DNA from: Halomarina pelagica
GTDB lineage: Archaea > Halobacteriota > Halobacteria > Halobacteriales > Haloarculaceae
Assembly: GCF_024228315.1 (NCBI RefSeq)
Contig: NZ_CP100454.1
Coordinates: 2,976,001-3,040,000 of the forward strand
Direction of reading: 5' to 3'
Length of the DNA stretch: 64,000 nucleotides
A model generated the notes under the pieces. The model was not told the origin of the DNA, did not search any database, and saw only the letters and a list, made by a program, of their open reading frames with translations. Both the position numbers and the translations under genes were made by a program. This document shows, in pieces, positions 6,816-48,572 of this stretch (positions within the stretch are counted from its first letter, which is position 1; each line of letters starts with the position of its first letter).

Positions 6816-6986
6816 ACCTCTACGAAGGTGCGGGCGGAGCATCAAACTGATGGGCGGTAGCACCCAACACGATCTGGCCGCGCCGGACGTGCTCCTCCGG
6901 AGCGGGGGGACGGCCCCGTGGGGGCCGGGGACGACGCTTCGCGACCTCTTCGGCACACCTAAACCCGCCCGGTCCCAAGGCGGGGT

Positions 6987-28432: not shown

Positions 28433-30346
28433 TCAGTCCTCGCGCGCGACCTCGTACAGCGCGTTTCGAACCGTCCCGTGTTCGGAGGCGTGGGGCCTGC
28501 CGTCGGCGTCGGCGTAGCCGTAGTCGAGCATCCGGTTGCGGTTGAGACAGAGCTTCGTGAACTCCGGTCGGAGCAGATCGAAGAGGGCGAATCGCTCCTC
28601 CAGTTCGGGGAAGCGCGCCTGGTAGTCCTCGACCGCTCCCCGGACCTGCGTCCAGAACCGGGCGTCCTCGTAGCCGTGATGTTCGGTGAGGATCGCGGAG
28701 AGGTAGCGGAAGACGCCGATAAACAGCCCCGCGACGACGAACTGACAGAGTCCCTCCGGCGGCTCCGTCCGGAGCACGGCGTCGAGGTCCGGCGGCAGGT
28801 CGGCGAGTTCAGGTATCGGATACTCGCTCACGTTCACGTCGTCCACGAAGTCCTTGACCGCGAGGCGGGTCGGGACGCACTCGTCGTCGAGCACGAGGAT
28901 GGCGTTCTCGCCGTGCGGGGAGAACGCCGTCCCGTAGCGATACAGGTAGTGCAGCAGCGGCGGGAGGACGACGCCGAACAGTTCGTCGAGCCACTCCTCG
29001 ACGGAGAGGCCCGACCGCTCGACGAGCTTCGAGACGAAGGGCGTCCCGTCGGCGTCCACGTGGAGCAGCGCGGCGAGCGTCACGGGGCGCTCGTCGTCGC
29101 GGACGAGCGACTCGACGCTCTCGCGCCAGACGCAGCCCAGTAACTCGTCGTACTGGTACGGCGACCCATCGATCGCCGCGAAGTCGGGGTGGTCGTAGTT
29201 GAGCCCCGCCACCTCGCCCGGCAGGATCAGCTCGCACTCCTCGCGGAGGAACGGGTCGTCGTCGCGGACGCGCTTCACGTACTCGGTGACGAGCGGCGCG
29301 GCCTCGGTGCGCTCGCCCGGTAACCCGCGGTAGACGAGCGTGTTGAGGATGCGCATGGGGAGCTTCACGTTGCGCTTCTCGGGGTTCGATACGTTGACGA
29401 ACGTCCGAATCGACTGCATCGGGAGGTACTCGTCCGGCCCCTCGCCCAGCGGAACGATGTCACCCGCCGCGATCTGCGCCGGGAAGAGCTGGACGACGCT
29501 GTTCTCCCACTGCCAGTCGTGGACCGGCAGGAGGTAGTACTCCTCGGGATCGCGGCCAGCGCGTTCGAGTTTCCGGACGAACTCGTCGTACGTCTCTCCC
29601 AGTTCCTCGCGGACGAGCGTCCCGTAGTCGAGGTCGGAGACGGCCGCGAACGTCGCCTCCGAGCGCCGGACGGCGAGCCACGAGAGGCGCACGCGCCGCT
29701 TGCGCTCGGGGGCGTACCGCCGGTAGTCGTCGTAGCTCCACCCGATGCGGCCCTTGTTGTACGTGATCCACGGGTGGCCGCCCATCTCGCCCTCCAGTTC
29801 GGCGTAGCTCAGATCGAGGAGGTCCGCCTCGCGCTCGCGCCGACGCGCCTCGATGTGGGCGTCCGCGAGGAGCGTGTGGTTGTACTCGCGGACGAGGTGG
29901 CCGGCCGTCATCCCGTCCATGCCGATGCGCTCGCGCGCGTCGCGGACGAACCGGACGGGATCGGTCGCCGACTCCCACGACTCGCCGTCGTAGCGCTCGA
30001 CCGAGCCGGGGAGGACGCGGTAGCCGTCGAACAGCCGACGCTCGGCGCGGAAGCGGTAGGACGCGCGGTCGAGCGTCAGGCGGTAGGTGCGGATCTCGCC
30101 GCGGTCGTCGTTCCCGTCGCGGTCGTCCCCGTGCTGGTCCTCGCCCTCCTCGCCCGCGCGTCCGACGACGGTCGGGTCGATCAGCCCCTCGTAGGCGAAC
30201 TCCGCCAGCATCTTCTCGAGCAGGTTCGTCCCGACGGTCTCCCACACGTCGGGGTCGAGCGCGTCCGCGAGTGGTTCGGGCAGCGGGTCGTCGGTTTCGG
30301 GGATCTGTGCGTCGGATTCCGTCTCGGGCGTGTGCGCGTCTGACAT
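28433..30346 (-). CDS. iucA: IucA/IucC-family siderophore synthetase (last operon gene)
   Basis: A 637-residue NIS (NRPS-independent siderophore) synthetase: ATP-dependent condensation of a citrate carboxylate with a hydroxylated/acylated diamine. Visible landmarks: 'EMGGHPWITYNKGRIGWSYDDYRRYAPE', 'LPVHDWQWENSVV', 'PMQSIRTFVN' with 'KRNVKLPMRILNT', and 'YGTAFSPHGENAILVLDD', all typical of the family's ATP/substrate pocket. Final gene of the siderophore operon, 6 nt after the hydroxylase. The IucA versus IucC label follows the Haloferax cluster order and is tentative. Confidence 0.88.
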   Translation of the reverse strand: MSDAHTPETESDAQIPETDDPLPEPLADALDPDVWETVGTNLLEKMLAEFAYEGLIDPTVVGRAGEEGEDQHGDDRDGNDDRGEIRTYRLTLDRASYRFRAERRLFDGYRVLPGSVERYDGESWESATDPVRFVRDARERIGMDGMTAGHLVREYNHTLLADAHIEARRREREADLLDLSYAELEGEMGGHPWITYNKGRIGWSYDDYRRYAPERKRRVRLSWLAVRRSEATFAAVSDLDYGTLVREELGETYDEFVRKLERAGRDPEEYYLLPVHDWQWENSVVQLFPAQIAAGDIVPLGEGPDEYLPMQSIRTFVNVSNPEKRNVKLPMRILNTLVYRGLPGERTEAAPLVTEYVKRVRDDDPFLREECELILPGEVAGLNYDHPDFAAIDGSPYQYDELLGCVWRESVESLVRDDERPVTLAALLHVDADGTPFVSKLVERSGLSVEEWLDELFGVVLPPLLHYLYRYGTAFSPHGENAILVLDDECVPTRLAVKDFVDDVNVSEYPIPELADLPPDLDAVLRTEPPEGLCQFVVAGLFIGVFRYLSAILTEHHGYEDARFWTQVRGAVEDYQARFPELEERFALFDLLRPEFTKLCLNRNRMLDYGYADADGRPHASEHGTVRNALYEVARED

Positions 30347-30352
30347 CTCGGG

Positions 30353-31720
30353 TTAGTCCTCCTGTATCGGGTGGTCGGTTCGCCCCTCTACGGGGGAGTC
30401 TGACAGGAACTGCTCGACGCCGAAGTCCTGGAACACGGTGTCCCGGTCGACGGGATAGACCGCCTCGCCGAGCAGCTGCTCCACGATGACGCTGTTGCGG
30501 TAGGTGCCGAGGCCGAGGTCGGGCGCGCCGACGCCGTGGGTGTGGAGTTCGGCGTTCTGGACGAACACCCGCCCGGCCACGTCGTCGAGTTCGACGCGGT
30601 AGTCCTCGGTGATCCGGAGGCGGTCGCGCTCGTCGCGGCGGATGCGCGGTTCGAGCGGCGCGAGGAACTCGGGCGTCGGCCGGTGGTAGCCCGTGCCCAG
30701 GACGACGACGTCCGCGCCGTGCTCGAAGCGCGTCGCCTCCTGGCGCTGCTCGCAGGCGAGGCGGTAGCGGTGCGGGCCGTCGGCCGACGGCTCGATCCCC
30801 CGCACCTCGGTCATCGCCAGCAGGCCCACGTCGGGGTCGCGCTCGATCGAGTGCTCGTACAGGGTCTCGTAGATGCGGTCGTTCGTCTCGGGGTCGATCC
30901 CCTTGTACAGCAGGTCCTGCTCGGGGAGCACCTCGTCGCGGGTCTCCTGCGGGAGCGAGTTGAAGTACCGCGCGTACTCCGGCGTGAAGTGCTGGAGGCC
31001 GAGCTTCGAGTACTCCATCGGGAAGAAGCCGTCCGATCGCGTGAGCCAGTCGAGGCGGTAGTCGCGCTCGGGCTGGCGTTCGAGCAGGTCGAGGAACACC
31101 TCCGCCGCGCTCTGGCCCGACCCGACGACGGTGATCGCGTCGGCGTCCAGGCAGCGTTCGCGACGGTCGAGGTAGGACGCCGTGTGGAACACGTCGGCGT
31201 CGGGGAGGTCGCGGAACGCCTCCGGGACGTAGGGGACGCTCCCCACGCCGAGTACGAGGTCGCGGGCGAGGTAGCGGTGGCGTTCGCCCGTCTCGGGGTT
31301 CCGGGCGCGCACCTCGAACACCTCGCGCTCGTCGTCGTACTCGACGGCGGTCACCTCTCGCGAGAACCGACAGGAGTCGAGGCGCTCGGCGACCCACCGC
31401 ATGTACGCGTCGTACTCGCGCCGTGGGATCTGGAACGTCTCGTAGAAGTAGAACTCGTACAGCCGGTCGCGCTCCCGGAGGTAGTTGAGGTAGCTGTGGG
31501 GGCTGGTGGGGTCCGCGAGCGTCACGAGGTCCGCGAGGAACGGGACTTCGAGGGTGGTCCCCTCGATGAGCATCCCGCCGTGCCAGCGGAACTCGGGCTT
31601 CCGGTCGAGGAAGACGGCGTCCGCGTCGGCGTCCGCGCCGTCGAGCAGCGCGGCCAGCCCGAGGTCGAACGGGCCGATCCCGACGCCCACGAGGTCCCGA
31701 ACGGGTTCGGCGGCGCTCAT
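30353..31720 (-). CDS. iucD: Siderophore N-hydroxylase (IucD/PvdA/SidA family)
   Basis: FAD- and NADPH-dependent N-monooxygenase, 455 residues. FAD-binding GVGIGPFDLGL near residue 12, family block 'SYLNYLRERDRLYEFYFYETFQIPRREYDAYMRW', NADPH-binding 'VVGSGQSAAEVF', and 'VLGTGYHRP' near the C-terminal FAD part. In a pathway starting with diaminobutyrate it should hydroxylate 1,3-diaminopropane rather than lysine. Its start overlaps the end of the upstream acyltransferase gene by 4 nt. Confidence 0.92.
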   Translation of the reverse strand: MSAAEPVRDLVGVGIGPFDLGLAALLDGADADADAVFLDRKPEFRWHGGMLIEGTTLEVPFLADLVTLADPTSPHSYLNYLRERDRLYEFYFYETFQIPRREYDAYMRWVAERLDSCRFSREVTAVEYDDEREVFEVRARNPETGERHRYLARDLVLGVGSVPYVPEAFRDLPDADVFHTASYLDRRERCLDADAITVVGSGQSAAEVFLDLLERQPERDYRLDWLTRSDGFFPMEYSKLGLQHFTPEYARYFNSLPQETRDEVLPEQDLLYKGIDPETNDRIYETLYEHSIERDPDVGLLAMTEVRGIEPSADGPHRYRLACEQRQEATRFEHGADVVVLGTGYHRPTPEFLAPLEPRIRRDERDRLRITEDYRVELDDVAGRVFVQNAELHTHGVGAPDLGLGTYRNSVIVEQLLGEAVYPVDRDTVFQDFGVEQFLSDSPVEGRTDHPIQED

Positions 31721-32310
31721 CCGAGCACCTCCTCGAACCGCTCGCGCTCGCAGACCATCAGGAGCGCGTCCTTGTCCTCCTCCTCGAACCGGAACTCGCG
31801 GACCGGCTCGAAGCCGCAGCGCTCGAAGCAGTGGATCGCCGCCTCGTTGCGCGCGTCCGGTTCGGTGACGATCCGGTCCGTCTCGTGGTGGGTGAACTGG
31901 AACTCGGTCATGGCGCGGAGGAGCGGGATCGCGTACCCCCGCCCGAGGTACTCCGGCGGACCGATCAGCAGGTGGATCCCCTGGTCGGTCGGGTCGGCGT
32001 CGTAGTACGAGGCGAGCGCGTCGTCTGCCGCCCAGTAGGACTCCCAGTAGCTCATCGGGACGTGATCGAGGCAGCCGACGTACGGCGTGAGGTGGTCGTC
32101 GGCCAGCTTCTCGACCAGCGCGTCGCGGAAGCGCGGGAGCGGGTGGTTCAGTTGCCAGTACGGCAGGACGTGGGGCTCGTTGAGCCAGGCGTGGAGCCGC
32201 CCGAGGTCGCGGTCGAGCGCCGCCCGCCGGAACGAGATCGTCCGCCCGATCGCCTCCTCGCGGCGCTGGAAGTCGTAGGCCGCGGCCACCGTGGCGCGCG
32301 GGTCGGTCAT
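31717..32310 (-). CDS. iucB: GNAT acyltransferase (IucB-like)
   Basis: 197-residue N-acyltransferase expected to acylate the N-hydroxy-diamine (acetyl-CoA donor), forming the hydroxamate. Landmarks: 'LHAWLNEPHVLPYWQLNHP', 'SYWESYWA' and the acyl-CoA loop 'GPPEYLGRGYAIPLLRA', shared with IucB/RhbD-type enzymes. The ATG at 32310 overlaps the end of the preceding synthetase gene (ATGA). Confidence 0.9.
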   Translation of the reverse strand: MTDPRATVAAAYDFQRREEAIGRTISFRRAALDRDLGRLHAWLNEPHVLPYWQLNHPLPRFRDALVEKLADDHLTPYVGCLDHVPMSYWESYWAADDALASYYDADPTDQGIHLLIGPPEYLGRGYAIPLLRAMTEFQFTHHETDRIVTEPDARNEAAIHCFERCGFEPVREFRFEEEDKDALLMVCERERFEEVLG

Positions 32311-34199
32311 TCGGCGGTCACCTCGGGTTCCGTCACGAGCGGGTTCTCGATCTCGGCGTACACCGACTGGTCGTCGAGCGACCCGACGAGTTCGTCCATG
32401 TCGTGGAACCGGGTGAGCAGGTTCGCCTTGCACGGCACCGTCGGCTCCGAGAGCAGGCTCGTCACCAGCGAGGAGGTGGGACGGTCGTACTCGGTCGCCC
32501 GCTCCAGTTCCTCGCGGAGAGCGGCCAGCAGGTGGCGCTCGTCCGCGCCCGCCACGCCGAGCGCGTTCGCGACGCCGAAGGCGTTGTTCAGCACGACGTA
32601 GTAGCGGATCCGCTCGTCGGCGACGGCGTCCGGACAGATCGTGTCGGCGCGCTCGCCGACGCCCGGCAGGAGCCGATCCACCTCGTCGTACCTCGCCTCG
32701 GGGAAGTAGTACCCCTGGTTGTCGCGGTAGTAGAACGCCTCGGGATAGCCGTCGTCGAGCCGAAGGAGGCTGTTCTGCTGGTGGGCCTCGAGGCCGATCC
32801 CGCGCTCGAGGTAGAGCCAGAGCAGCGGGCGCACCGAGATCGCGAGGTAGCGGCGGAACCACTCCTCGGCGACGGCGTCGAACGACCGGCCCTCTCGGTC
32901 GGCGAGCGCGGCGACGACCGCCCCCAGCCGGGAGCGCCCCTCGCCGATTCGGTCCTGGCAGAGCGCGACGACCGGCGCGACGTTCCGCGCGTCGTCCCCC
33001 CGGAAGGGGTTCTCCCGGAGGACGACCTCGAAGCCGGATTCGGGGGCGTCGGTCGCGCCGTCCCCGTCGTTCCCTCCTCCCGCGTCGCGTCCGTCGTCCA
33101 CGTCGAGGGTGAGGTACGCGGGGTCGCGCACCACGTCGAAGTCGGGGAACTCGCGGGCGAGGTCGTCGCCGAGTGCCGTCTCCAGCAGCTCTGAGACGGC
33201 GACCCCGCGGTCCAGTTCGGGGCGCTTGTTCACCCGCCGGGAGTTGGTGATGCGCACGTCGAGCGACCCCTTCGCCATGAACGAGGCGTCGGGGTGATAG
33301 AGCGTGCGCACCGACGTGGTGGGGGCGAACTCGCGGCCCACCTCGCCGAGCGGTTCGAGCCGCCCCGCCTCGATCAGCTCGCGCACCGCGGGCCGGTCGA
33401 GCAGGCGGCGGGCCTGCCAGGGATGCAGCGGGAGGAGCGCGTCGCCGCTCTCGACGTGCGCCGCGACGAAGTCGTCGGGGACCTCGGGATCCGCGCGGAG
33501 TTCGCGCTTCACCCACTCGACGGCGCTCTCGTCGCGCGCCGCGTCGTGGACGACGAGGTCGGGGTCGGCGCGGACGTAGTAGAGCGGGAAGCGCCCGCGG
33601 AGTTCCGGGGCGTAGCGCCCCTCCTCGCGGGGGGACATCCCCTGTCGGCTCTTCGGCGTGGGGTGCAGCAGGTGGCCGAAGACGAGCGACTGCTCGGCGT
33701 CGAGCAGGTCGAAGTCGAGCCCGTAGAGGCGCTCCTCGTCGTCCCTTCGCGCCTCGACGAAGCGCTCGACGTTCCGGCAGCTGAGGAGCACGCGGCGGAG
33801 CAGTTCGTCGCCGTCGCCGTCGCGCGCGAGCGAGAGGTCGCGGACGACGAGCGCGGCGAGCGTCGCATAGTCGCACTCGACCGGATCGCCGCCGCCGAAG
33901 CGCGCGCGGGTGGGGCCGTCGAAGAGGTGGCGACCCGTCGGCGATCGGTAGGCCACCGGCGTCAGCAGTTCGACGCCCAGTTCGTCGAGCGCGCACCGGG
34001 CCACGAGGCCGCTCTCGGGGGCGTCGATCGGCGTCCCCTCCGCGGCGACGAACTCGCCGCCCGCCTCGCGGAGGTAGCAGTCGAGGAAGGCGGTGCGGGT
34101 CGCCTCGCGCGCGACTTCTGCGGCGTCGACGCTCGTCGCCCCGGACGCGGTCGTCGGTTCCTCGCCCGCGCCCGTCGTCTCTCCGGCCTCGCCGCTCAT
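32307..34199 (-). CDS. iucC: IucA/IucC-family siderophore synthetase (third operon gene)
   Basis: 630-residue NIS synthetase, second of the pair in this operon; two such enzymes are needed to attach two diamine arms to one citrate. Landmarks: 'LLHPTPKSRQGMSPREEGRYAPELRG', 'LPLHPWQARRLL', 'PTTSVRTLYHPDASFMAKGSLDVRITNSRRVNK' and 'IGLEAHQQNSLLRLDDG'. An Asp/Gly-rich insert (about residues 365-385) interrupts the domain, as expected for a halophilic surface loop. ATG overlap with both neighbours. IucC label tentative. Confidence 0.88.
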   Translation of the reverse strand: MSGEAGETTGAGEEPTTASGATSVDAAEVAREATRTAFLDCYLREAGGEFVAAEGTPIDAPESGLVARCALDELGVELLTPVAYRSPTGRHLFDGPTRARFGGGDPVECDYATLAALVVRDLSLARDGDGDELLRRVLLSCRNVERFVEARRDDEERLYGLDFDLLDAEQSLVFGHLLHPTPKSRQGMSPREEGRYAPELRGRFPLYYVRADPDLVVHDAARDESAVEWVKRELRADPEVPDDFVAAHVESGDALLPLHPWQARRLLDRPAVRELIEAGRLEPLGEVGREFAPTTSVRTLYHPDASFMAKGSLDVRITNSRRVNKRPELDRGVAVSELLETALGDDLAREFPDFDVVRDPAYLTLDVDDGRDAGGGNDGDGATDAPESGFEVVLRENPFRGDDARNVAPVVALCQDRIGEGRSRLGAVVAALADREGRSFDAVAEEWFRRYLAISVRPLLWLYLERGIGLEAHQQNSLLRLDDGYPEAFYYRDNQGYYFPEARYDEVDRLLPGVGERADTICPDAVADERIRYYVVLNNAFGVANALGVAGADERHLLAALREELERATEYDRPTSSLVTSLLSEPTVPCKANLLTRFHDMDELVGSLDDQSVYAEIENPLVTEPEVTAE

Positions 34200-35725
34200 C
34201 GGCCCACCTCCGCGGCGTCGAGGTCGCGGCCGAGCGCCGTCACCCGACTGAGGATCCCCTCCGCGTGCTCGACCGTCGTCCGCGGGTTGAGCAGGGTGAA
34301 CTTGAGGTGGGTTCGCCCGTCGACCTCGGTGCGCGCGAGCACGGCGTCGCCCTCGGCGAGCAGCGCGTCGCGGATCGCCTCGTTGATGCGATCGGCCCGA
34401 CCGCCGTCGCCGCCGTCGGCGGCTGACGACGGGACGTAGCGGAAGACGACGGCGTTGAGCGCCGGTTCGGTCACCAGTTCGAGGTCCGGATCGGCCGCGA
34501 TCCGGGCGGCCACCTCGGTCGCGAGGTCGAGGGTGTGCTCGACGAGCGCGGCGAGGCGTCGGCGGCCGAGCGTGCGGAACGCGACGAGCGGCTTCAGCGC
34601 GTCGAACCGGCGGGTGGTCTGGGTCGACTTCGAGACGAGGTTCGGGACGCCCGCCGCGTCGTCGCCCTCCGGGTTGAGGTAGGCCGCGTTGCGCGCCACG
34701 TGGCGGTAGTCGTCGCCGTCGCGCAGGAGGAACAGCCCGCAGCTGATCGGCTGGTAGAACAGCTTGTGGAAGTCCACCGCAAGGGAGTCCGCCCGCTCGA
34801 TCCCCGACAGCCGATCGCGGTGGCGGTCGCTGAGCGCGAGCGCGCCGCCGTAGGCCGCGTCGACGTGGAACCAGAGCCCGCGCTCGTCGGCGCGGTCCGC
34901 CAGCGCGTCGAGCGGATCGACGCTCCCGAAGTCCGTCGTGCCGGCGGTGCCGACGAGCGCGAACGGCTCCCGGCCGTCGTCGTCGAGGCGGGAGAGCGCC
35001 TCGTCGAGCGCCGCGGGCGACAGCCGGAAGTCGTCGTCCGTCTCGACCTCGACGACCGCCCGCTCGCCCAGCCCGAGGTGGGCGGCGGCCTGCGCCGCCG
35101 TGAAGTGCGCCGCCTCGGAGGAGAGGATTCTGAGGTCGGCCGCCTCCGGCGGGAGGCCGTCGCGCCGTGCGTCGCGGTCGTGCTCCTCGGCGAGGTGGCG
35201 GTTGCGCGCCAGCAGCAGGCCGAGGAAGTTGGACGCCGTCCCGCCGCTCGTGAAGACGCCGTCGGCGTCCTCGCCGTAGCCGAACAGCGCCGCGAGCCGG
35301 CCGACGAAGCGCTCCTCGAGCACCGACGCCGCGGGGCTCTGGTCCCAGGAGTCGAGCGACTGGTTCGTCGCGGTCAGCATCGCCTCCGCCGCGAGCGAGG
35401 GGACGAGCGGCGGGCACTGCAGGTGGGCGGCGCAGGCCGGGTGCGAGACGTTCACCGAGTCCGCGAGCACGAGGTCAGCGACCTGGCGAACCGTCCGCTC
35501 GAAGCCGACGCCCTCCTCGGGGAGACACTCGAGGTCCGCGAGTCGGTCGCGCAGTCGCTCCGGCGAGCGGCCGGAGTAGGGGGCGTCGCCCTCCACGACC
35601 GTCTCGACGACGGCCTCTTCGGCGAGGCGCATCGCCGCCCGGTAGCTCTCCGCGCTCCCCTCGCCGCCGAGGAAGAGCGTTTCGGCGGTCGTGCGACCGT
35701 CGGCGTACGCCGGGACGCCGCTCAT
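34196..35725 (-). CDS. ddc: L-2,4-diaminobutyrate decarboxylase
   Basis: PLP-dependent group II decarboxylase, 509 residues, making 1,3-diaminopropane for the siderophore backbone. HVDAAYGG at residues 287-294 and the PLP lysine Lys321 in AVDFHKLFYQPISCG; also 'NVSHPACAAHLQCPP' and 'FTSGGTASNFLGLL'. The Haloferax volcanii equivalent is called bdb. Assignment to diaminobutyrate rests on pairing with the aminotransferase upstream. Confidence 0.93.
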   Translation of the reverse strand: MSGVPAYADGRTTAETLFLGGEGSAESYRAAMRLAEEAVVETVVEGDAPYSGRSPERLRDRLADLECLPEEGVGFERTVRQVADLVLADSVNVSHPACAAHLQCPPLVPSLAAEAMLTATNQSLDSWDQSPAASVLEERFVGRLAALFGYGEDADGVFTSGGTASNFLGLLLARNRHLAEEHDRDARRDGLPPEAADLRILSSEAAHFTAAQAAAHLGLGERAVVEVETDDDFRLSPAALDEALSRLDDDGREPFALVGTAGTTDFGSVDPLDALADRADERGLWFHVDAAYGGALALSDRHRDRLSGIERADSLAVDFHKLFYQPISCGLFLLRDGDDYRHVARNAAYLNPEGDDAAGVPNLVSKSTQTTRRFDALKPLVAFRTLGRRRLAALVEHTLDLATEVAARIAADPDLELVTEPALNAVVFRYVPSSAADGGDGGRADRINEAIRDALLAEGDAVLARTEVDGRTHLKFTLLNPRTTVEHAEGILSRVTALGRDLDAAEVGR

Positions 35726-37080
35726 GCGGGTACCTCCGTCGCCACGGCCGCCTCGACCGCCTCGTCGAACCGGTCGGCGATGGCGTCCACGTCCTCGCGC
35801 GTGACGATCAGCGGCGGGAGGAAGCGGGCGGTCGCGCCGTGGCGGCCGCCGAGTTCGACGATCAGTCCGCGGTCGAAGCACTCCGCCCGCACCCGCTCCG
35901 CGAGGTCGCCGTCGGCGGGGTAGCTCCCGATCCCGTCGGGTTCGGCGGTCGGGTCGACGAACTCGACGCCGAGCATCAGCCCGCGACCGCGCACGTCGCC
36001 CACGGCGTCGTGCCTCTCGGAGACGGCGTCGAGGCGGTCGCGCAGGCGCGCGCCCATCGCGGCCGCGCGCTCGTGCAGGTCGTGTTCGAGGACGTACTCG
36101 ATCGTGGCCTCCCCCGCGGCCATGGCGAGCTGGTTGCCGCGGAAGGTGCCGGCGTGCGCCCCCGGCTCCCACACGTCGAGGCGCTCGTCGTAGACCACGA
36201 CGGCGAGCGGGAGGCCGCCGCCGACGGCCTTCGAGAGGGTGACCACGTCGGGCGTGATGCCCGCGTGCTCGAAGGCGTACAGCTCGCCCGTCCGCCCGAG
36301 GCCGGTCTGGATCTCGTCGACGACGAGCGGGACGCCGTGCTCGCGGGTGATCCGGCGGAGTTCCCGCGTCCAGCCGTCCGGCGCGGGGATCGCGCCCCCC
36401 TCGCCCTGGACGAGTTCGACCACCGCCCCGGCGGGGTCGGTGACGCCGCGTTCGGGGTCGTCGAGGAGGCGATCGACGTAGCGCGCAGCGGTGCGCGCGC
36501 CCTCGTCGCCGCCGATCCCGAACGGACAGCGGTAGTCGTAGGGATACGGGAGGTGCTGGACGCCCGGCATGAGCCCGGAGACGGGTTCCTTCGGGTCGGT
36601 GTCGCCCATCAGGCCCAGCGCGCCGTTGGTCATCCCGTGGTAACCGCCGCGGAAGGCGAGGACGCTCTCCCGCCCCGTGGCGGTCTTCACGAGCTTGAGG
36701 GCGGCCTCGACCGCGTCCGTCCCGGCCGGACCGCAGAACTGCACGCGGGCGCGCTCGGCGAACTCGTCGGGGAGGCTCTCGAAGAGCCGATCGACGAACG
36801 CCTCCTTCGCCGGGGTGGTGATGTCGAGGGTGTGGAGCGCGCGGCGCTCCTCGAGCACGCGCTCCATCGCCTCGACGGCGACGGGGTGGTTGTGCCCGAG
36901 CGCGAGCGTCCCCGCGCCCGCGAGACAGTCGTAGTACTCCTCGCCGTCCATGTCGACGACGGTGACCCCCCGCGCCTCCCGGATGGCGAGCGGCAGGTGC
37001 CGCGGGTACGTTCGCGCGTTGGACTCCCGGCGCGCCTGCTGGTCGAGCAGTCGCGCGTTCGACGCCTCGCCGTAGCTCAC
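35722..37080 (-). CDS. dat: Diaminobutyrate--2-oxoglutarate aminotransferase
   Basis: Class III PLP aminotransferase, 452 residues, converting aspartate semialdehyde to L-2,4-diaminobutyrate with glutamate as donor. DEIQTG at residues 255-260, PLP lysine Lys284 in TLSKAVGGGLP, 'FCGPAGTDAVEAALKL' substrate/phosphate loop. First gene of the siderophore operon. The start is GTG at 37080, supported by a GGAGGTG Shine-Dalgarno about 8-14 nt upstream and by fit to the family N-terminus. Its promoter has two iron-box palindromes. Confidence 0.94.
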   Translation of the reverse strand: MSYGEASNARLLDQQARRESNARTYPRHLPLAIREARGVTVVDMDGEEYYDCLAGAGTLALGHNHPVAVEAMERVLEERRALHTLDITTPAKEAFVDRLFESLPDEFAERARVQFCGPAGTDAVEAALKLVKTATGRESVLAFRGGYHGMTNGALGLMGDTDPKEPVSGLMPGVQHLPYPYDYRCPFGIGGDEGARTAARYVDRLLDDPERGVTDPAGAVVELVQGEGGAIPAPDGWTRELRRITREHGVPLVVDEIQTGLGRTGELYAFEHAGITPDVVTLSKAVGGGLPLAVVVYDERLDVWEPGAHAGTFRGNQLAMAAGEATIEYVLEHDLHERAAAMGARLRDRLDAVSERHDAVGDVRGRGLMLGVEFVDPTAEPDGIGSYPADGDLAERVRAECFDRGLIVELGGRHGATARFLPPLIVTREDVDAIADRFDEAVEAAVATEVPA

Positions 37081-37144: not shown

Positions 37145-37162
37145 TTTTAGGCTAGCCTAAAA
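37145..37162. promoter_or_regulatory. Iron-box palindrome 1 (perfect, 18 bp)
   Basis: TTTTAGGCTAGCCTAAAA is a perfect palindrome, form TTAGG-N4-CCTAA, close to DtxR/IdeR/SirR-type operators. It lies 65-82 nt upstream of the dat start. Likely bound by an iron-responsive repressor of the DtxR family when iron is plentiful. Confidence 0.8.
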
Positions 37163-37180: not shown

Positions 37181-37198
37181 TTTTAGGATGGCCTAAAA
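37181..37198. promoter_or_regulatory. Iron-box palindrome 2
   Basis: TTTTAGGATGGCCTAAAA has the same 7-base arms and 4-base spacer as box 1, 36 nt away centre to centre (about 3.4 helical turns). The two boxes probably act together on the siderophore promoter. Confidence 0.75.
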
Positions 37199-46917: not shown

Positions 46918-47604
46918 ATGACAACGGAGACCGGGGCAGGTGCGTTTGCACAGGCGCTCGCAGCGATGAAGCGCCGCGGGAGCAGTCTGCTCGTCGTCGG
47001 TTCGGCCTGCGGCCGGTCGCACCTCCTGGCGTGTCGACGGCTCCTCGGCGAGGACGGGGACGGGGAACGGCGGCGGGTGGTCGTACTCACCGACGGGACG
47101 GCCGACCTGGACGCGCGCGTTCCGTCGGACAGCCGCGAGACGGGGACGTTCGAACTCTTCGACCGGCGTCCGGCGGTGCGCAGTGCGGCGGCCGCGACCC
47201 CCACCGCACCGGGGCTTCCGGCGACCCTCGGGACGCTCGAAGCGGAGGTACGCGAGTCGATCGACGAGTTCGACGCCGCGACGGGCGGACTCGATCCCGC
47301 GGAGTTGCGCGTGTGCGTCGACTCGCTCCGTCCCCTGCTCGAGCGGTACGACGAGGAGGACGTGGTGTCGTTCGTCGAGAGTACGGTCGACGCAACGCTC
47401 GAGGTGGGCGGGATGTGTCACGTCCACCTCCCCGTCGACGCGAACAACTCGGTGGTCGAACGCCTCGAACCGCTGTTCGACGCCACCATCGAACTGCGCG
47501 AACTACACGTCCCTCCCACCGACGGCGAGGAACCGCGCACGGCGACGGAACAGTGCTGGCACCTCCACGAGGCGGACGTCACCACCGACTGGCTTCCGCT
47601 CTAG
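46918..47604 (+). CDS. DUF7504-like RecA-superfamily protein
   Basis: 228 residues. The N-terminus (GSSLLVVGSACGRSHLLACRRLLG) resembles a P-loop without the canonical GKT, as in the DUF7504/DUF835-type haloarchaeal family linked to signal transduction. A core strand 'RRVVVLTDGTAD' follows and the C-terminal part has 'MCHVHLPVDANNSVVERLEPLFDATIELRE'. Promoter TTATTATAT at about 46879. Function unknown; a cytoplasmic regulatory ATPase-like role is inferred. Confidence 0.75.
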   Translation: MTTETGAGAFAQALAAMKRRGSSLLVVGSACGRSHLLACRRLLGEDGDGERRRVVVLTDGTADLDARVPSDSRETGTFELFDRRPAVRSAAAATPTAPGLPATLGTLEAEVRESIDEFDAATGGLDPAELRVCVDSLRPLLERYDEEDVVSFVESTVDATLEVGGMCHVHLPVDANNSVVERLEPLFDATIELRELHVPPTDGEEPRTATEQCWHLHEADVTTDWLPL

Positions 47605-47626
47605 GCCGACCAAAATCTTTTAGTCT

Positions 47627-47640
47627 TTAGGCACACCTAA
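47627..47640. promoter_or_regulatory. Iron-box palindrome 4
   Basis: TTAGG-CACA-CCTAA, the same arms and spacer as the siderophore promoter boxes. It lies 9-22 nt before the ATG at 47649 and just after a TATA-like element (ATCTTTTAG, 47616-47624), so a bound repressor would cover the transcription start. Confidence 0.75.
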
Positions 47641-47648
47641 TCCGATCG

Positions 47649-47792
47649 ATGGCAGCACCGGCATCGCGCTCGGAATCAGTCGATCGATACGTGACGGCGC
47701 ACTGTACCTCCCCCGAACGGACGGTCTTCACCGAATCGAAAAACCCGGACGGGTGGATTGCGACCGACCTGATCGTCGACGTGGAACGGTAA
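47649..47792 (+). CDS. Small iron-box-controlled protein (47 aa, DUF7331-like)
   Basis: 47 residues; the C-terminal half reads 'TVFTESKNPDGWIATDLIVDVER', close to small haloarchaeal proteins grouped as DUF7331. Too short for a signal or membrane segment. The only gene behind iron box 4, with leaderless spacing, so it should be made under iron limitation. A small iron-sparing regulator or adaptor is possible; function unknown. Confidence 0.65.
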   Translation: MAAPASRSESVDRYVTAHCTSPERTVFTESKNPDGWIATDLIVDVER

Positions 47793-47952: not shown

Positions 47953-48501
47953 TTAGTGCGTCGCTTCCTCGAGCACCAGCGTGTCGTCCTCGAGGTAGTG
48001 TTCGATGTGGTGGGCGTCCTCCTCGAGGCCGACCAGGATCTCGCGGAGTCGCTCCTCGGTCGTGTAGTCGCCGAGGTTGTTGGTGAGTTCGATGTGGTCG
48101 CGCATCGACTCGATGATGTCCCCGTAGATCGCCAGGTCGTTCTCGAGGGAGGTGCGGATGTCGTAGACGTCCTCGCCCTCGAACTCGACGGTGGCGCGCT
48201 CCTCCTGGTTGGACGGTCCCGCGATCGGGACGCCGCCCAGCGCCTGCGCGCGCTCCGCGATCACGTCGGCACCCTCCTCGACGGTCTCGTAGGCCTCCTC
48301 GAGGAACAGGTGCATGTCGAGGAACTCCGCCCCTTCGACGTTCCAGTGGTGCTTCTTGAGCTGGTGATAGAGGACGTACGCGTTCGCGAGGTCCGTGTTG
48401 AGCGCGTCGATGATCTGCTCCGAACGGTCCTTGTCGATGCGCAGCGCGTTCTCCTCCACCTCGTCCGCCGGCTGTCGTATCGCTTCCTTCTGGGTGCTCA
48501 T
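47953..48501 (-). CDS. dpsA: DNA-protecting ferritin-like protein DpsA
   Basis: 182 residues from ATG at 48501. Dps-family dodecamer that oxidises and stores iron. Ferroxidase/interface residues visible in 'HHWNVEGAEFLDMHLFLEEAYE', plus 'ERAQALGGVPIAGP' and 'GDIIESMRDHIELTNNLGDYTT' motifs of halobacterial DpsA. TATA-like GGTTTAAGTGG at about 48526-48536 with a short leader. A TTTTGG-N4-CCAAAA palindrome lies further upstream, consistent with iron-dependent control. Confidence 0.95.
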   Translation of the reverse strand: MSTQKEAIRQPADEVEENALRIDKDRSEQIIDALNTDLANAYVLYHQLKKHHWNVEGAEFLDMHLFLEEAYETVEEGADVIAERAQALGGVPIAGPSNQEERATVEFEGEDVYDIRTSLENDLAIYGDIIESMRDHIELTNNLGDYTTEERLREILVGLEEDAHHIEHYLEDDTLVLEEATH

Positions 48502-48556: not shown

Positions 48557-48572
48557 TTTTGGGAAGCCAAAA
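48557..48572. promoter_or_regulatory. Palindrome upstream of dpsA
   Basis: TTTTGG-GAAG-CCAAAA, same N4 spacing as the iron boxes but arms TTTTGG instead of TTTTAGG. It lies upstream of the TATA box, an activator-like position. TCTCGAAAAC and GTTCGAGAAAACC repeats lie nearby (48580-48615). Confidence 0.5.

Follow-up and report, generated by a model that had tools for sequence, protein, structure and literature searches.

What a 47-codon gene placed directly behind an iron box does for its host is the question raised by this locus of Halomarina pelagica. The original prediction held that the gene links an uncharacterised family of small proteins to iron starvation. We analysed the surrounding 64,000 nucleotides (the window, meaning this whole stretch of DNA), the rest of the genome and the homologous loci of other haloarchaea. 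The features of the locus are collected in Table 1.

Table 1. Features of the microprotein-dpsA locus, in window coordinates
Feature	Position	Strand	Basis
DUF7504-family gene 5' of the microprotein gene	46918-47604	+	PF24336, 167.9 bits
Distal, imperfect iron box CTAGGCCGACCAAA	47601-47614	.	8/10 vs. TTAGGNNNNCCTAA, 9/10 vs. TTWGGNNNNCCWAA
TATA-like element TCTTTTAG	47616-47623	+	about 28 nt 5' of the ATG; TTTT kept in the promoter consensus
Proximal iron box TTAGGCACACCTAA	47627-47640	.	palindrome at -22 to -9 from the ATG; kept in homologues
Microprotein gene, 47 codons, DUF7331-like	47649-47792	+	ORF list; purifying selection
dpsA, haloarchaeal Dps-type ferritin	47953-48501	-	NF041388, 294 bits (cut-off 170)
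Palindrome TTTGGGAAGCCAAA (TTTGGCTTCCCAAA on the dpsA strand)	48558-48571	.	related to the iron box

The proximal box is a perfect match to the 14-bp palindrome TTAGGNNNNCCTAA, the core that has been proposed for IdeR/DtxR regulators (PMC8464063). With at most one mismatch, this pattern was found at five sites in the window (three perfect, two with one mismatch), as compared to 0.09 expected from shuffled sequences, and the whole genome contains 18 perfect sites vs. none for the reversed pattern. On these counts, and on the conservation of the promoter described below, a chance origin of the box was rejected. In Haloferax volcanii, leaderless transcripts account for 72% of the protein-coding ones and the TATA motif is TTWT (PMC4983044); since transcripts are mostly leaderless there and follow this motif, transcription of the microprotein gene is expected to start at or near its ATG. 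The box had been described as overlapping this expected start: the palindrome is present, but it lies between the TATA-like element and the presumed leaderless start, and not strictly on the latter. The distal box overlaps both the end of the upstream gene, at its stop codon, and a BRE-like ACCAAAA. The DUF7504 family of this gene adjoins 25 of 130 microprotein homologues. The proximal box is very probably an operator of the iron-repressed type.

The reading frame behind the box is under strong constraint. With respect to the nearest orthologue (L017), dN was 0.059 and dS 0.608, and 17 of the 21 differences fall on third codon positions; the resulting dN/dS of about 0.1, indicative of purifying selection, means that the 47-codon gene is real, as had been predicted. 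The protein scored 17.6 bits against PF24018 (DUF7331), under the gathering cut-off of 27, and 29 of 37 aligned boxed members matched this family at E <=0.01 (best 5.1e-7), with the similarity located in the C-terminal half. On the strength of these profile matches, the microprotein is to be regarded as a distant DUF7331 relative. In alignment A1 the invariant or nearly invariant residues are M1, V26, F27, E29, N32, W36, I37, D40 and V43, and no cysteine is found among them; given that A1 has no set of four conserved cysteines, the microprotein is not expected to be an Fe-S electron donor. An AlphaFold model (pLDDT 68) gave a single hairpin of low confidence, in which no cofactor site was seen.

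Conservation of the box was followed in the taxonomic family of the window, where 110 of 116 genomes contain a microprotein homologue. From 150 matches (sum of per-genome counts), 130 loci were examined; the 20 excluded ones were seven from a genus already represented by six, one near-identical genome copy (G084) and 12 weak matches (E from 1.5e-4). A box precedes 122 of the 130 homologues, proximal in 103 cases and distal in 19. The start codon is 20-23 nt from the first base of the box in 102 proximal cases, all scoring 9 or 10 out of 10, while a perfect box 23 nt 5' of the ATG at L075 was counted as the 103rd; the 19 homologues with a distal box alone have it 47-50 nt 5' of the ATG. Outside the promoters of the same loci, only 35 of 474905 positions reached at least 9/10. 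In 55 of the 102 promoters the best second box lies 26 bp 5' of the proximal one, and the consensus of 101 distinct promoters, ttaggc..acCaaaAccctTTTa..TTTAGGc..gCCTAA, shows two boxes that flank a TATA element. No box was found at eight of the 130 loci (L097, L099, L107, L115, L117, L125, L129 and L144), and the genomes concerned, except that of L097, hold a boxed copy too.

The same arrangement was observed in named haloarchaea, in all of the best 80 of 256 loci, picked by peptide similarity alone (57 proximal, 23 distal), and in 35 of the 36 loci that make up the whole set found beyond the taxonomic family by the phylum search (22 proximal, 13 distal), the single exception being a canonical DUF7331 locus. 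The phylum search matched 38 of 246 genomes, all in the order of the window, and no microprotein match was reported outside the class. Absence of the box from orthologous promoters had been named beforehand, along with the lack of an iron response, as what would speak against the prediction, and the three sets show the box in place. The box is not a general DUF7331 trait, a possibility that was considered and rejected: it was found in none of 30 canonical loci, whose core FYDAENPLAWV differs from that of boxed microproteins, nor at L271 and L272, two paralogues in this genome. Many canonical DUF7331 genes (L146-L175) share another promoter element, about GTGGTAACACATA, near their starts. An Idr-type DtxR gene adjoins mostly microproteins of the CE..PG type, at nine of 210 loci (L119-L122, L124, L127, L136, L139 and L143) and five of the 36 (L296, L298, L302, L303 and L306); at a tenth locus of the 210, L241, the neighbour is a SirR-type gene.

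The other perfect boxes of the genome place the microprotein in a recognisable company. Ten box-side proteins were scanned, giving six Peripla_BP_2, one SBP_bac_6 and one class-III aminotransferase, together with members of the gluconate dehydrogenase subunit 3 and RGP families; two further sites precede the microprotein gene and its paralogue (C1:2474870). The iron-uptake genes of this genome thus bear the same 14-bp box. The aminotransferase heads a siderophore-type cluster on the minus strand (28433-37080), preceded by two perfect boxes (37147-37160 and 37183-37196). This gene was covered by the domain scan, and the remaining ones were assigned from their translations, as decarboxylase-like, two IucA/IucC-like, acetyltransferase-like and monooxygenase-like. 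Their order resembles that of the dat-bdb-iuc cluster described in H. volcanii (PMC7407949), which is induced by iron limitation (PMC11349517). Four PF01325 (DtxR-family) genes score above the cut-off; by translation, L263 and L264 are DtxR-like, L265 is a shorter relative and L266 is more like another winged-helix regulator. A search for autoregulation found no perfect box in the promoters of these four genes. Taken together, the conserved box, the site held in common with iron-uptake genes and its identity with the IdeR/DtxR core bear out, at the level of sequence, the predicted link of this small protein family to iron starvation. In the literature searched, DUF7331 was not found named and the microprotein was not found as a regulon target; the main haloarchaeal regulon studies, outside that scope, may list it, and its novelty as a member of the iron regulon is provisional.

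Further boxes deserve mention in their own right. A 9/10 box, TTCGGCACACCTAA, lies at 6949-6962, 38 nt 5' of the ATG (6987) of a 135-aa ORF, and at C1:2103490 (L260:16091) a variant box, TTTGGTCGGCCTAA, stands in tandem with a perfect one before a gene. Genes for an ABC ATPase and a permease-like protein come after the second boxed microprotein gene, on the same strand, at L131 (C1:2474848-2477078), an order found also in G030 (L130); the ABC pair is possibly an iron-regulated exporter.

On its other side the microprotein gene faces dpsA, with which it is convergent at a distance of 160 nt. A dps gene lies within 1.2 kb of 92 of the 130 homologues, and anywhere in the fetched stretch for 65 of the 80 and 25 of the 36. 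Convergent orientation was seen for 90 pairs of the 130-locus set, the two genes being a median of 72 nt apart; at several loci they overlap at their stop codons, and at several others more than 300 nt separate them. In several genomes with two dps genes (e.g., G109, G087, G013 and G089), each microprotein type is found beside its own dps. The palindrome in front of dpsA lies 70 nt 5' of its ATG, upstream of a TATA-like TTTAAG. This palindrome, the distal box and the ferritin neighbour had no place in the original prediction. Among 87 distinct dps promoters, TTWGGNNNNCCWAA was present at >=9/10 in 44, vs. 1.3 in shuffled sequences, and in 32 of them at -73 to -66, vs. 0.06; about half of the promoters score under 9/10 for it. 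Judging from this position upstream of the TATA region, the palindrome could be a place from which a regulator activates. TroR of H. volcanii reportedly represses uptake and induces storage. The DpsA of Halobacterium is a ferritin whose level is lower under iron deficiency (PMC3600143).

The two genes also go together beyond this neighbourhood. In 292 genomes of the class, a microprotein (A1 match at E <=1e-3) was found in 276 and DpsA (NF041388 at E <=1e-40) in 279; both were present in 275 and neither in 12, with DpsA alone in four and the microprotein alone in one (Fisher p = 4e-17, not corrected for the tree). The microprotein-only genome, G134, owes its match (L310) to a canonical-type DUF7331 without box, and rescoring of all candidates (9 + 10 genomes) gave no other match at E 1e-3. 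The 12 genomes with neither gene belong to eight genera, several of which have other species with both. The test is weakened by the fact that a joint loss can be one deletion of a linked block and that assemblies are incomplete (three genomes without both genes are 91-95% complete); it is strengthened by the unlinked pairs, which both persist (e.g., in G001, G120, G127 and G142). The four DpsA-only genomes (G234, G245, G252 and G337) all belong to genus g33, which provides a natural test of the action of DpsA alone. In three DpsA-less genomes, a 38-aa ORF ending with EENTEAWIATD and a few more residues was observed (L336, L337 and L338), with a 9/10 box farther upstream; these ORFs are perhaps remnants or diverged relatives.

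Considering all this evidence, we find it probable that a DtxR-type iron operator controls a microprotein that works on or with DpsA. Against this reading count the poor structural model, the four genomes that have DpsA alone, the eight homologues with no box and the low palindrome scores of about half of the dps promoters. When iron is plentiful, a metal-loaded regulator of the DtxR family, sitting between TATA and start, would block transcription of the microprotein gene, and at the distal box it would cover the BRE too. The dpsA promoter has its related site 5' of the TATA-like element, from where bound regulator could promote expression of the ferritin gene. Under iron starvation the regulator would be released, so that the microprotein is made and the induction of dpsA ends. 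The target or partner of the microprotein would then be whatever DpsA is left, and its most likely mode of action would be to bind the ferritin shell, so that storage is stopped or iron is released. The shared operator strongly suggests repression by an iron-loaded DtxR-family protein and induction by starvation; which regulator binds, and with what sign, we infer from the same sites, and the palindrome 5' of dpsA, by its position, would serve to activate this gene. Action on or with DpsA is in itself fairly likely, linkage and co-occurrence being consistent with contact between the two proteins, while the more precise proposal of iron release is a guess modelled on Bfd. As a tentative extension, haloarchaea may possess, throughout the class, a family of microproteins that lack an Fe-S cluster and serve as partners of ferritin. 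Produced during starvation from a tandem iron-box promoter, they would bind DpsA and mobilise or shut off the stored iron, and a single regulator would turn one gene of the convergent ferritin-microprotein pair up as it turns the other down. To our knowledge, little is known about the exit of iron from archaeal ferritins, and a microprotein that is conserved, seems to be under iron control and accompanies DpsA across haloarchaea is a testable candidate for this step; in addition, a protein family of unknown function is tied to a predicted condition of expression, iron starvation.

The microprotein might instead be just another iron-starvation protein, involved in uptake, siderophore handling or metal sparing, whose adjacency to dpsA reflects shared regulation and no contact. 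This is what the box shared with uptake genes would lead one to expect, and no dps lies within 1.2 kb of 38 of the 130 homologues; moreover, the boxed paralogue of this genome adjoins the ABC exporter-like pair and not dps, which speaks against a DpsA partner. We nevertheless consider it less likely, as the microprotein is not kept without DpsA in the 292 genomes, one unboxed canonical relative excepted, and several genomes give both paralogue types a dps neighbour of their own. Members of the DtxR family differ in metal specificity, and with four PF01325 genes in the genome the box might answer mainly to another metal, e.g., manganese, through a regulator of other specificity; sites in front of siderophore-type binding proteins and of the siderophore-type cluster make this improbable. 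Control at the RNA level, by which the transcript started at the iron box would enter the 3' end of dpsA and lower its expression as antisense RNA, the peptide being secondary, would suit the many closely spaced or overlapping convergent pairs, but it is very improbable with a peptide under such strong purifying selection, gaps of more than 300 nt at several loci and a pair that is unlinked in many genomes. Finally, little weight attaches to a lone 47-codon ORF when the DNA is GC-rich, but a chance box before a spurious ORF can be dismissed, box, spacing and peptide being conserved across the class.

The preferred reading, an iron-controlled partner of DpsA, can be set beside known systems. 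The predicted control is like that of DtxR/IdeR regulons (haloarchaeal Idr, SirR and TroR) in its 14-bp core (PMC8464063), in its siderophore and iron-uptake targets and in the presence of PF01325 genes in the genome, whereas the operators are predicted here to be single 14-bp boxes or tandem ones, 26 bp apart around the TATA element. The window protein is unlike canonical DUF7331 members in its score below the PF24018 cut-off, in its core and in the box, which they do not have. RyhB-type regulators are iron-sparing regulatory RNAs. The microprotein resembles them in its predicted production under iron shortage; unlike them, it is a conserved protein, and the original suggestion of an iron-sparing small regulator was not sustained, since nothing shows gene regulation by the protein and the evidence points to a DpsA partner. 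Bfd, the small bacterioferritin-associated ferredoxin, releases iron from bacterioferritin and uses four cysteines for its [2Fe-2S] cluster. The microprotein is unlike Bfd in having no four conserved cysteines (A1) and a Dps-type ferritin as putative partner, and no homology is claimed; the two have in common their small size, induction by starvation (a prediction in the case of the microprotein) and a neighbouring gene of the ferritin family together with which they are conserved.
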